A stretch of DNA of 64,000 nt, taken from positions 314,557 through 378,556 of the forward strand of contig BGOJ01000001.1 in assembly GCA_003569185.1 (NCBI GenBank). Direction: 5' to 3'. Made by a program: the position numbers and the translations under genes. Positions within the stretch are counted from its first letter, which is position 1. The number at the start of each line of letters is the position of its first letter. The notes beneath the pieces are model-generated. The model was not told the origin of the DNA. It did not search any database and saw only the letters and a program-made list of their open reading frames with translations. The stretch comes from Candidatus Planktophila sp. (GTDB taxonomy: Bacteria; Actinomycetota; Actinomycetes; Nanopelagicales; Nanopelagicaceae). Shown here piece by piece: positions 16,868 to 46,174 of the stretch.

Positions 16868-17803
16868 GTGCCAATGATTGAATCAGAAGCTGGGTTGATA
16901 GAGCGCTTGCGCGATCTATTTCACACCTCATTTGAAAATGGGGTTGAGGTTGGAATTGGTGATGATGGTGCGGTAATTGCTGCCAATAATAATAAATTAG
17001 TGGCAACGGTAGACATGGCGGTGGAGGAGATCCACTTCAAAAGAGAGTGGTCCACACCCTTCCAAATAGGCGCAAAGTTAACTACCGCAAACTTAGCTGA
17101 TGTTTTTGCCATGGGAGCCACACCGAAATACTTACTTGTCGCTGCTGCGATAACAGAGGTGAATAACTCTCAAACTGTTACCGATCTTGCAAATGGGATT
17201 AGATCAGTTGCTGATAAGTTTAAAGTTACTGTAATTGGTGGAGATTTAAGTAAAGCTGAAAAAATGAGCCTAAGCATCACCGCACTCGGGGAGCTAACTG
17301 GTAAAGCGATAACTAGAGATGGTGCAAAGGTTGGTGATCTGGTTTACCTAAGTGCGCTGCCAGGTTTATCCGCCGCAGGGCTTGCGATTTTAACTAGAGG
17401 ACTTAACCGACCAAAGTATGTGGTTGAGGCGCACCTAAATCCAAAATTAGTGGCTCCAAATAATTTAATTAAGGTGGCGACTGCGATGTGTGACATAAGT
17501 GATGGCTTAGTTACTGATGCAGGAAATATCGCAAGAGCATCTGGTGTGAATATAGAGTTAAGTAAAGAGCTACTGCAGAAATCAGGTGATTTCAAAGATC
17601 TTGCCGAACTTGCCACCGAATTAGGTGAGGATGTTTTTGATTGGATACTAACTGGCGGTGAGGATCATTTCTTCTTAGCAACCGTCTCTGCCGATAAGGC
17701 CAGTGATGATCTTGGCTTATTGGTTGGAAAAGTTGAAGCCGGAAGTGGTGTTGTGAAATTAGATGGTAAAGCGATTACAAAGGCTGGATACCAGCACTTT
17801 TAA
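16868..17803 (+). CDS. thiL: Thiamine-monophosphate kinase
   Basis: GIGDDGAVI, GGDLSKAEKMSLSITALG, CDISDGLVTDAGNIA. Confidence 0.94.
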   Translation: MPMIESEAGLIERLRDLFHTSFENGVEVGIGDDGAVIAANNNKLVATVDMAVEEIHFKREWSTPFQIGAKLTTANLADVFAMGATPKYLLVAAAITEVNNSQTVTDLANGIRSVADKFKVTVIGGDLSKAEKMSLSITALGELTGKAITRDGAKVGDLVYLSALPGLSAAGLAILTRGLNRPKYVVEAHLNPKLVAPNNLIKVATAMCDISDGLVTDAGNIARASGVNIELSKELLQKSGDFKDLAELATELGEDVFDWILTGGEDHFFLATVSADKASDDLGLLVGKVEAGSGVVKLDGKAITKAGYQHF

Positions 17804-43015: not shown

Positions 43016-44917
43016 CTATCTTAAAGTGAGCGTAATTACAGCGCCTTGTTTAACTTTTGTGCCAATTGCTGGAGAGATATTATTTACCTTTCCTGCACCC
43101 TTAATTACAACTTTGAGTCCTAAATTCTCAATATCTAAGCTGGCGTCATTTTTATTCTTACCTAAAACATTTGGCACAAAGACAAACTCAGGTCCCTTAG
43201 AAACAACGACTGAAATTTTGCTACCCAATTCAATTGAATCAGATTTATCAGGAGTCTGAGATATAACTTGTCCTTTGAAAATACTGTCGCTAAATTTATA
43301 AGTAACATCCACATCAAAGCCTTTATCCGTTAACTCCGAAAGCGCCTCATCCGCGCCTTTACCTACAAAGGATATGAGAGTGATTTTTTCGATTCCCTTA
43401 CTAACTTCGATATTGACAATCGATTTACGTTTAACTGCCTCACCATTTTTGGGATCAGATCTAACTACAAATCCGGAAGCCAATTGCATATCAAATACTT
43501 CATTGATATCACCAACTGTTAATCCAAGCTCAGAAAGTTTTTGCGAAGCAACATCAGGGGTTAATCCCTTGAGATCTGGAATTTGAATCCGTTCCTGACC
43601 TTTGGAGATTACTAAACCAACTGTGCCAGCGGGAGAGACCTTTCCACCGCCACCAGGTCTTGAAGAGATTACCTTCCCTTTTTCAATATCTTCGCTAAAT
43701 ATTTCTTCGGCAACTTGAGTTTCAAGCCCTAATTTTGAAAGTGTTGATTTAGCTTCAGATTGAGTCAAACCAACTAAGGACGGTACAGAGATTTTTCCAA
43801 CACCTAAGAACTTGTAGCCACCAAAAATCAATCCAGCAAGAAGTAAGAGGGCGATTATTCGATTGCGCCTTACCCTTCTAGAAACTTTGCGTTTTTTAGT
43901 TCTCACCGAATCCTCTGGCTTAGAAACATTAATAGGCTTAGTTGAGATTAATTGAGAAGTTTTCTCCTTCAGGCCTCCAAAGGCAGAACCTACGGAAACT
44001 TTCTTGCGCTTACTAATTTTAGGCGCTACTGGTGGCAAATCAAGTTCCAAACTTAACTGTCTGCGTTTTGGATCTAGTTTTGCTTGGATATCGCGCACTT
44101 TATTAAGTAATTCCTCAGCATCTTTTGGTCTGTGATCAGGATTTGGTGCGGTTGCGTCAAAAACCAGATCTGCAATTACATCTGGAATATTGCTGTTTAT
44201 CTGGTTAATTTTCGGAATACGGTCATTGACATGGCGATATGCAATTTGAATTGGTGTTTCACCATCGTATGGTTTCTTACCAATTAACATCTCGAACAAA
44301 ACAATGCCAATCGCGTAAATATCACTACGTGCATCAGCAACACCTCGCTGAACCTGCTCTGGCGATAAATATGAGACGCTTCCAAGGACAACACTTGATT
44401 CTGCAGTCATGGTTTGAGCCATAGAGGTGTTTCGAGCCAAACCAAAATCAGCCACTTTTATTCGGCCATCTTTTGAAATTAAAATGTTTTCAGGCTTAAT
44501 ATCTCGATGAATAATTCCAATTTTATGTGCAGCCGCTAAGGCGCTAAGAACTGGATTTATTATTTGAATAGTTTGTTCAGCGTTAAGAGCTCCATTTTCG
44601 TTTAAGAAATCTCTAAGGGTTGTGCCCTCAACTAATTCCATTACAAGAAATACTGCAGGTGGTCCACCTTCATTCCAACCTTGGTCTTGAATTGAAACTA
44701 TATTTGGATGCGATAGTGCCGCAGTAGCTTTTGCCTCTTTAATGAATCTTGAAACAAATGCCTCATCATTGGCTAGATGAGCATGCATTATTTTTACTGC
44801 CACTGGGCGATCAAGCCGAGTATCTATACCAGCATAAATTGTTGCCATGCCACCAGCTGCTAAACGCCGTTGAAGCAAATAGCGATTATCAATCAGTTCA
44901 CCGGTTAGATCAGACAC
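43016..44917 (-). CDS. Ser/Thr protein kinase with C-terminal PASTA domains (PknB-type)
   Basis: AAGGMATIYAGIDTRLDRPVAVKIM, HRDIKPENILI, ADFGLA; one TM, repeated PASTA units. Confidence 0.95.
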   Translation of the reverse strand: MSDLTGELIDNRYLLQRRLAAGGMATIYAGIDTRLDRPVAVKIMHAHLANDEAFVSRFIKEAKATAALSHPNIVSIQDQGWNEGGPPAVFLVMELVEGTTLRDFLNENGALNAEQTIQIINPVLSALAAAHKIGIIHRDIKPENILISKDGRIKVADFGLARNTSMAQTMTAESSVVLGSVSYLSPEQVQRGVADARSDIYAIGIVLFEMLIGKKPYDGETPIQIAYRHVNDRIPKINQINSNIPDVIADLVFDATAPNPDHRPKDAEELLNKVRDIQAKLDPKRRQLSLELDLPPVAPKISKRKKVSVGSAFGGLKEKTSQLISTKPINVSKPEDSVRTKKRKVSRRVRRNRIIALLLLAGLIFGGYKFLGVGKISVPSLVGLTQSEAKSTLSKLGLETQVAEEIFSEDIEKGKVISSRPGGGGKVSPAGTVGLVISKGQERIQIPDLKGLTPDVASQKLSELGLTVGDINEVFDMQLASGFVVRSDPKNGEAVKRKSIVNIEVSKGIEKITLISFVGKGADEALSELTDKGFDVDVTYKFSDSIFKGQVISQTPDKSDSIELGSKISVVVSKGPEFVFVPNVLGKNKNDASLDIENLGLKVVIKGAGKVNNISPAIGTKVKQGAVITLTLR

Positions 44918-44953: not shown

Positions 44954-45550
44954 TTATGGCACGCCAGATATCGTGTAATCCGCAGCTTTATTGGTTAATT
45001 CAGCAGAGAAATGTTTGTTTTGGTCCTTTAAGAAATTCAACATATGTGTTTTAACTACCTCACCATCACGAGCAATCACCCGTTCAAAACCAGATTCAGT
45101 ATCAAATTCCACCCAAATGATTCGCGAAAGCATTTTACGAAAAGCACTCTGTCCAGCCCCAACGCCCTCCAGAAACAAAGTTTTAGTTGGGGCAATTTTC
45201 ATGGTTTCACCAAAAACGTTTTGATGCCAATCAAATTTTCTATAAACTACCTCATTGCCCTGTAAAAATGGATTAAGAATCTCATTACAAACTCGCTCAG
45301 TTAATTCCTGTGATAGCGGATCCCTCCAGCCACTGTATAAATCATCCATATGTACTACTTGACTACCAGGGGTATCTGATTGCAATTTTGAAGCTAAGGT
45401 TGTTTTGCCTGACCCAGCAACGCCATCGATTGCAAAAACACATGGGGAGCTATTCTCAATCTCCTTAAGGTTAGTAAGTAAATCTTGATAATTAATCAAT
45501 TTTGAATTTCTCAGATTCTCGCTGCCAGCGCACCCAACCCCACACTGCAA
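44954..45550 (-). CDS. P-loop kinase, uridine-kinase-like; candidate salvage kinase of thiamine (hypothesis)
   Basis: FAIDGVAGSGKTTLASKL Walker A, VVHMDDLYSGW; overlaps the end of the riboswitch-controlled pnuC-family gene. Confidence 0.85.
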   Translation of the reverse strand: MQCGVGCAGSENLRNSKLINYQDLLTNLKEIENSSPCVFAIDGVAGSGKTTLASKLQSDTPGSQVVHMDDLYSGWRDPLSQELTERVCNEILNPFLQGNEVVYRKFDWHQNVFGETMKIAPTKTLFLEGVGAGQSAFRKMLSRIIWVEFDTESGFERVIARDGEVVKTHMLNFLKDQNKHFSAELTNKAADYTISGVP

Positions 45551-46043
45551 TTCCTGTGAAGATTAAATATAAAAAGCTTGTTAAATACAAATCACCTTTT
45601 AGGTATTGATAGGTATAGGCAAGATCGACAATTACCCACAAAGGCCAAGCCTCATATCGTTGCCAAATCATTAGCAGTTGAGCGATAACACTTCCGACAA
45701 ATCCAAAGGATTCAATGGCAGAGGATGCCGCTCCAATATTTATTAATAATGGCCAGATGGCAAGGGATAAAACAATTAACATTGTGATTACTGAGATTCG
45801 TTCTTTTGGTTTTAATTTTCTAGGTTTAACTCCCGTTGGTCCCCAGCCGAACCAACCCCAAATTCCGCCAGCTATAAATATAAATTGAAGTGCAGCACTT
45901 GCGTAGTATTGAGATTGAAAAAATAAGATTGCGTACAGAAAAGAGCTAACTCCCCACCAAGGCCATGTTATGCGTGGACCCAGTACGCCAAGAATTACAC
46001 CTGTCAGTGAGGTGATAAAAGCGAAAAATTCTAAAATGGACAT
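45492..46043 (-). CDS. pnuT: PnuC-family transporter, probable thiamine transporter PnuT
   Basis: GGIWGWFGWG and AVWGWVRWQRE motifs; ATG at 46043 (MSILEFF) lies just behind a TPP riboswitch. Confidence 0.85.
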   Translation of the reverse strand: MSILEFFAFITSLTGVILGVLGPRITWPWWGVSSFLYAILFFQSQYYASAALQFIFIAGGIWGWFGWGPTGVKPRKLKPKERISVITMLIVLSLAIWPLLINIGAASSAIESFGFVGSVIAQLLMIWQRYEAWPLWVIVDLAYTYQYLKGDLYLTSFLYLIFTGIAVWGWVRWQRESEKFKID

Positions 46044-46049
46044 TATGAA

Positions 46050-46138
46050 CCCCTTTCCAATTCGCATTACCGAACTGGTCAACCGGTCGGCTTGAAGTTC
46101 AAGCCCTCTCAGCTAAATTTCTTAGCTCCCGTGTTATT
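46050..46138 (-). promoter_or_regulatory. TPP (THI-box) riboswitch
   Basis: Minus strand: ACACGGGAGCTAAGAAATTTAGCTGAGAGGGCTTGAACTTCAAGCCGACCGGTTGACCAGTTCGGTAATGCGAATTGGAAAGGGG; conserved CTGAGAGGG and GGTAATGC, with paired helices. Confidence 0.9.
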
Positions 46139-46174
46139 TATCTTAGCCTAAAGAAAGTTGTCTATAGTTAGCAA

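Follow-up and report, generated by a model that had tools for sequence, protein, structure and literature searches.

The DNA analysed here (a stretch of 64,000 nucleotides, called the window below) carries on its minus strand a conserved variant of the THI-box riboswitch, in which the pyrimidine pocket and the L5 loop are kept and the pocket for the pyrophosphate, which lies between P4 and P5 in the canonical form, has been lost. The variant precedes a gene for a PnuC-family transporter, which is followed by a gene for a P-loop protein, and we consider it likely that these make up a thiamine-salvage operon of the thiamine-auxotrophic Nanopelagicaceae (acI). Thiamine would enter the cell through PnuT and be trapped there as TMP after phosphorylation by the co-translated P-loop kinase, and ThiL, encoded elsewhere, would convert TMP to TPP. 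The relevant features are as follows.

46140-46145, minus strand: putative −10 box TAAGAT (from the sequence), 8 nt before P2 (CGGG at 46131)
46037-46142, minus strand: variant THI-box (TPP-type) riboswitch aptamer, a full-length match to RF00059, conserved 5′ of pnuT across the family
46107-46112, minus strand: CTGAGA T-loop (J3-2) of the pyrimidine-sensing pocket, intact here and invariant in 58 aligned variants
46057-46078, minus strand: continuous 8-bp P4-P5 helix, CCAGUUCG-GUAAUG-CGAAUUGG, in which the canonical J4-5/J5-4 pyrophosphate loop is absent
46050-46056 (about), minus strand: Shine-Dalgarno-like stretch AAAGGGG (from the sequence), overlapping the 3′ edge of the aptamer
45492-46043, minus strand: pnuT, predicted thiamine transporter of the PnuC/PnuT family (PF04973, 2.9e-36; nearest solved structure 4qtn, PnuC)
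44954-45499, minus strand: NF005115-like P-loop protein of the uridine-kinase fold, predicted thiamine kinase, with a TTG start overlapping the pnuT stop
43016-44917, minus strand: PASTA-domain Ser/Thr kinase (NF033483, 631 bits), a marker of the syntenic site that lies outside the route
16868-17803, plus strand: thiL, thiamine-phosphate kinase, TMP to TPP (TIGR01379, 239.7 bits, cut-off 184)

The first-pass annotation had described a clear THI-box here and proposed Infernal as a check. The THI-type aptamer is real, since cmscan matches RF00059 over its full length (46037-46142, minus strand; E 6.1e-07) directly 5′ of the PnuC-family gene, but the score of 42.3 bits is below the Rfam gathering score of 54.3, so that a scan at that threshold misses the element, and the remodelling of the pyrophosphate-sensing half had been overlooked. 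The pnuT-linked aptamers of the family score 28-50 bits, every copy below the RF00059 gathering threshold, and the whole variant subclass is thus hidden by default Rfam thresholds. A pattern made of the T-loop and P4/P5 matches once in the window and not at all in 100 shuffles.

In an alignment of 58 distinct variants the blocks GGGAGC, GCTGAGAGG, GACCG, ACC and TAATGC do not vary; 32 columns are invariant, and compensatory changes are found in P3, P3a and P5. Two RF00059 features, the UGAGA T-loop of J3-2 with P2/P3 and the L5 UAAU loop (for which docking with P3 is predicted), are present and invariant. The J4-5/J5-4 pocket (G60, C77 and G78) is not: relative to the canonical CCUgAU-ccGGuUAAUaCCgg-CGuAGG, residues A61, U62, C77 and G78 (E. 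coli thiM numbering) are missing, and the conserved U59-A80 pair of the canonical aptamer is A-U. The resulting P4-P5 helix is uninterrupted in 95 of 101 distinct variants, with one extra 3′ nucleotide in the other six; 98.1% of its cells are paired, and in three of its pairs both partners have changed. Over the structure as a whole, 97.3% of cells are paired, versus at most 43% once the partners are slid. G83 is mostly A in the variants, and this change was rejected as a mark of the variant, being found in canonical copies too. A few genera (L068, L071, L084, L085, L088 and L091) have a one-nucleotide bulge in the 3′ strand of P4 and could be intermediates between the canonical and variant forms.

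What such an aptamer would sense depends on how the missing residues act in the known riboswitch. In the E. coli structure J3-2 has a role in pyrimidine sensing, and the pyrophosphate is held by a metal bound to G60, C77 and G78 and is also touched by G78 (PMC3764141); the E. coli thiM switch requires the pyrophosphate and binds thiamine about 1000-fold more weakly (PMC4112796). Because the pyrophosphate pocket is deleted, the aptamer may bind thiamine or TMP and have no need of TPP, a prediction from sequence to which we give a little less than an even chance. About equally likely is that TPP is still sensed, through a different contact, and that just the sensitivity has changed, to a lower affinity suited to the control of a transporter operon. 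The invariance of the T-loop, P2, the L5 UAAU loop and GACCG would fit that reading, as would the occurrence of G83A alone in canonical copies and the six variants with an extra 3′ nucleotide, which are possible intermediates; against it stand the roles of G60, C77 and G78 in the crystal structure, the pyrophosphate requirement of thiM, and the retention of C77-G78 in 29 of the 30 switches on non-pnuT genes (judged by eye; a script counted 27, because two copies end GGAA instead of GGGA, and these two, which it flagged "-" and which have GGCGAAGGAA, still carry CG). A separate loss affecting the same pocket is seen in L110 (G043:C24), a TPP switch 5′ of a ThiB-like gene in which CCAATACAGGGA replaces C77-G78.

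A scan of 85,462 species genomes (a species-level collection) for the variant-helix pattern found 98 loci, with the T-loop upstream in all but one, which begins at a contig end. Downstream, 85 have pnuT and the kinase, 11 have pnuT only (in ten the stretch ends too early, and one is on a contig that looks chimeric) and two have neither (the stretch ends before pnuT); every variant locus with enough sequence therefore has pnuT downstream, and in the linked loci pnuT with its variant aptamer lies directly 5′ of the kinase. This distribution bears on whether the leader is simply a decaying riboswitch that senses nothing any more, as its low Rfam score and lost pocket could suggest. With about 100 distinct sequences sharing 32 invariant columns and showing compensatory changes in P3, P3a and P5, always on the same operon, decay is highly improbable. 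As far as a literature search made largely without subscription papers could find, no TPP aptamer that lacks J4-5 has been reported, and as far as found the variant subclass is new. Some database labels at these loci look doubtful: in L168, from a contig labelled as a Flavobacteriia MAG, the acI pnuT and variant switch run into a thyA-like frame, which looks chimeric, and L125, L127, L164, L177, L201 and L171 carry the acI operon under the labels Bifidobacterium breve or Clavibacter sp. and are probably mislabelled.

The sequence around the aptamer suggests how it may act. TANNNT occurs 8, 9 or 10 nucleotides before CGGG in 34, 33 and 25 cases, respectively, among 98 distinct variant leaders, and judging by the position of this putative −10 box transcription would begin at the aptamer itself, leaving the leader with no P1 stem. 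Absence of P1 was rejected as a hallmark of the variant, for the family's canonical copies look alike upstream. AAAGGGG lies 6 nucleotides ahead of the ATG at 46043 and, as had been noticed from the sequence earlier, at the 3′ edge of the THI-box. Because of the −10 box position and this Shine-Dalgarno overlap, feedback is probably translational, the folded P1-less THI-box covering the Shine-Dalgarno. Minimum-energy folding, applied to one leader, recovers the 8-bp P4-P5 helix but otherwise no clean THI fold (z −1.9).

The transporter belongs to PF04973 (2.9e-36), and its THI-type element and thiamine-gene context place it with PnuT, predicted to carry thiamine and not nicotinamide riboside, as the first-pass annotation had proposed. 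That PnuT is under a THI element in acI Actinobacteria is already published: in the parts of their report available to us, Kang et al. (2017; PMC5301498) describe four acI strains with thiamine auxotrophy and a THI element 5′ of a "PnuC" gene to which they give a likely PnuT role, and nearly all thiamine salvage enzymes are said to be missing. Those parts name neither the P-loop kinase nor the altered RNA. The window's genome also has a second, different PnuC-family gene (G000:C1:124383-124967; 146 bits to PF04973), as do many relatives.

The thiamine gene content of these genomes leaves one step to be filled. The window's genome (868,086 bases in 6 contigs, about 64% complete) has thiL, recognised earlier at 16868 and well above its cut-off, as do 98 of the 100 genomes compared. 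Neither thiC nor thiE was found in that partial genome, in line with what had been noted for the window, nor in the complete congeners G001, G005 and G013; within the family thiC is found only in G026, and true thiE only in G026, G028, G037, G042 and G053. Weak PF02581 and TIGR01254 matches below the cut-off were not taken as thiE or ThiB. No TPK domain (PF04263) turned up in any of the family's 61 genomes, and matches in other families, which cover about 35 profile positions within long frames, were not counted as TPK. Genomes that retain thiL but have neither thiE nor TPK must obtain TMP in some other way.

Could that source be a known type of thiamine kinase? It had been stated at the outset that a dedicated thiamine kinase or pyrophosphokinase elsewhere in the genome would speak against the P-loop protein. 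No TPK was found, but the window's genome does have an APH-family gene (G000:C1:172726, 71 bits), as do several relatives, so that a ThiK-like kinase could perform the thiamine step with the P-loop protein as an accessory. This is very unlikely, in that the near-complete genomes G030, G039 and G044 keep pnuT-kinase and thiL and have no APH-type kinase, only short Ser/Thr-kinase-like loops matching. From its linkage and profile, the P-loop protein is the best candidate for the conversion of thiamine to TMP and very probably the missing enzyme, a role that is new as far as found.

That protein had been described as uridine-kinase-like, and both its sequence and its predicted fold agree. The closest NCBIfam model is NF005115/PRK06547, "hypothetical protein", which it matches at 106 bits, below the 173-bit equivalog cut-off, with uridine kinases next; all 64 aligned family members match the same model. 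An AlphaFold2 model (pLDDT 96) has uridine kinases and the uncharacterised 1rz3 as its best PDB folds, and the uridine-kinase fold sets it apart from TPK. The conserved motifs are DGxAGxGKTTLA, HMDDLY, DW, EGVG and RDG. Homologues begin at a TTG or ATG equivalent to the TTG at 45499, so that the two genes overlap by about 8 nucleotides at the pnuT stop; the 58 nucleotides given previously came from the first TTG of the open frame.

The kinase gene is present in 71 of the 100 relatives, including all 25 genomes of the genus and 57 of the 61 of the family. Its homologues in other actinobacterial families have no thiamine genes adjoining, and it is absent from some relatives that lack thiE and bear thiL (G064, G084, G086, G091 and G092), so another thiamine kinase must exist in such relatives outside the family. 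Linkage of the homologues to thiamine genes is thus seen throughout the family but not beyond it, and the assignment as a thiamine kinase, which family-wide linkage and the thiE/uptake profile favour, is restricted to this family because homologues elsewhere are unlinked and several thiE-less genomes are without the kinase.

An informative contrast comes from a single syntenic site, between lycopene cyclase/crtB genes and the PASTA Ser/Thr kinase, which is 3′ of the site in all configurations. In the window the site is also marked by a carotenoid cluster, with two adjacent lycopene-cyclase half genes (PF18916; 46175-46809, plus strand) and crtB/crtI-like genes nearby. Here and in most genera the variant switch is found there together with pnuT and the kinase. 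In G028 and G037 the site has thiE as well as thiO and thiG under a canonical switch, and no P-loop kinase; these thiO-thiG switches, positional relatives of the variant, retain the pyrophosphate loop. In G026, G034 and G054 the kinase is there alone, without pnuT, and a ThiB-type gene elsewhere is under a canonical switch. G043 likewise has the kinase without pnuT at the site and a ThiB-like locus, and it also carries pnuT with a variant switch elsewhere, at the end of a contig. A CytX-like HMP permease is under a second canonical switch in g5 (seen in G053; G028 and G042 have similar switch copies). This genus (L104, L112 and L113) has no thiC and seems to import HMP and to make its own thiazole, which would be a third way of obtaining B1 within the family.

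Across the family, the co-occurrence check suggested earlier gave a consistent pattern: every one of the 57 genomes with a gene for thiamine uptake has the kinase, and all four without such a gene, which bear thiE with a canonical switch and represent two genera, lack it. Uptake was scored on PnuT and canonical-switch ThiB only, with a ThiB family search covering part of the set. Fisher's test gives 1.9e-06 with phylogeny ignored, a value that overstates independence because the genomes, partly incomplete MAGs, are related. The contrast indicates that one transporter can take the place of another, that the kinase is retained in all cases of thiamine import, and that it is missing where ThiE makes TMP and no thiamine importer is found.

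This pattern also bears on whether the kinase acts on some other substrate (nicotinamide riboside, a nucleoside or another alcohol) and is in the operon for another reason. Its uridine-kinase/NRK-like fold and sequence, the unlinked homologues outside the family, and the known pairing of a PnuC relative with an NRK-like kinase would all suit such a role. G026 and G034 keep the kinase and have no PnuC-type gene, however, which argues against a nicotinamide-riboside kinase; the kinase is absent exactly where thiE replaces thiamine uptake, and thiL without thiE or TPK demands a source of TMP. Another substrate is therefore unlikely, and phosphorylation of thiamine is the preferred reading. Taken with the RNA, the history at this site may be that of a subclass derived from the TPP aptamer, whose pyrophosphate pocket was lost as the operon turned from making thiazole to taking up thiamine, and which would now sense thiamine or TMP and control a new P-loop thiamine kinase, a proposal we hold tentatively, at somewhat less than even confidence.

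The individual parts have known counterparts. The aptamer shares with the TPP riboswitch (RF00059) P2, P3/P3a, the CUGAGA T-loop, GACCG, the L5 UAAU loop and the Shine-Dalgarno position, and departs from it in the lack of J4-5/J5-4 (C77/G78), the change of U59-A80 to A-U, and mostly that of G83 to A. In Bacteroides, PnuT transports thiamine and is paired with Tnr3 (PMC5613172); those pnuT-tnr3 operons likewise have a PnuC-family transporter, a THI-type element and an adjoining thiamine-phosphorylating enzyme (predicted here), but in acI the place of Tnr3 is taken by a P-loop kinase, whose expected product is TMP. The predicted reaction, thiamine to TMP feeding ThiL, is that of E. coli ThiK, which has the APH fold and not the P-loop uridine-kinase type. 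The hypothetical P-loop proteins of PRK06547/NF005115 fall under the same model as the window protein, which scores below its cut-off. The HMP-PP (thiS) riboswitch, a different RNA, is a precedent for a thiamine-pathway ligand other than TPP, and the variant aptamers of the ykkC, guanine and FMN classes are precedents for altered specificity, with no TPP-aptamer variant among those examples.

The acI Actinobacteria are reported to be the most abundant bacteria in most freshwater lakes and to be thiamine auxotrophs (PMC5301498). If the present reading is right, the operon would close the acI B1 route, and some members of an actinobacterial kinase family that has no name would gain a function. 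It would also provide a compact case of a change of aptamer ligand, in which positionally related aptamers, at one genomic site in related genera, either have the pyrophosphate pocket or lack it.
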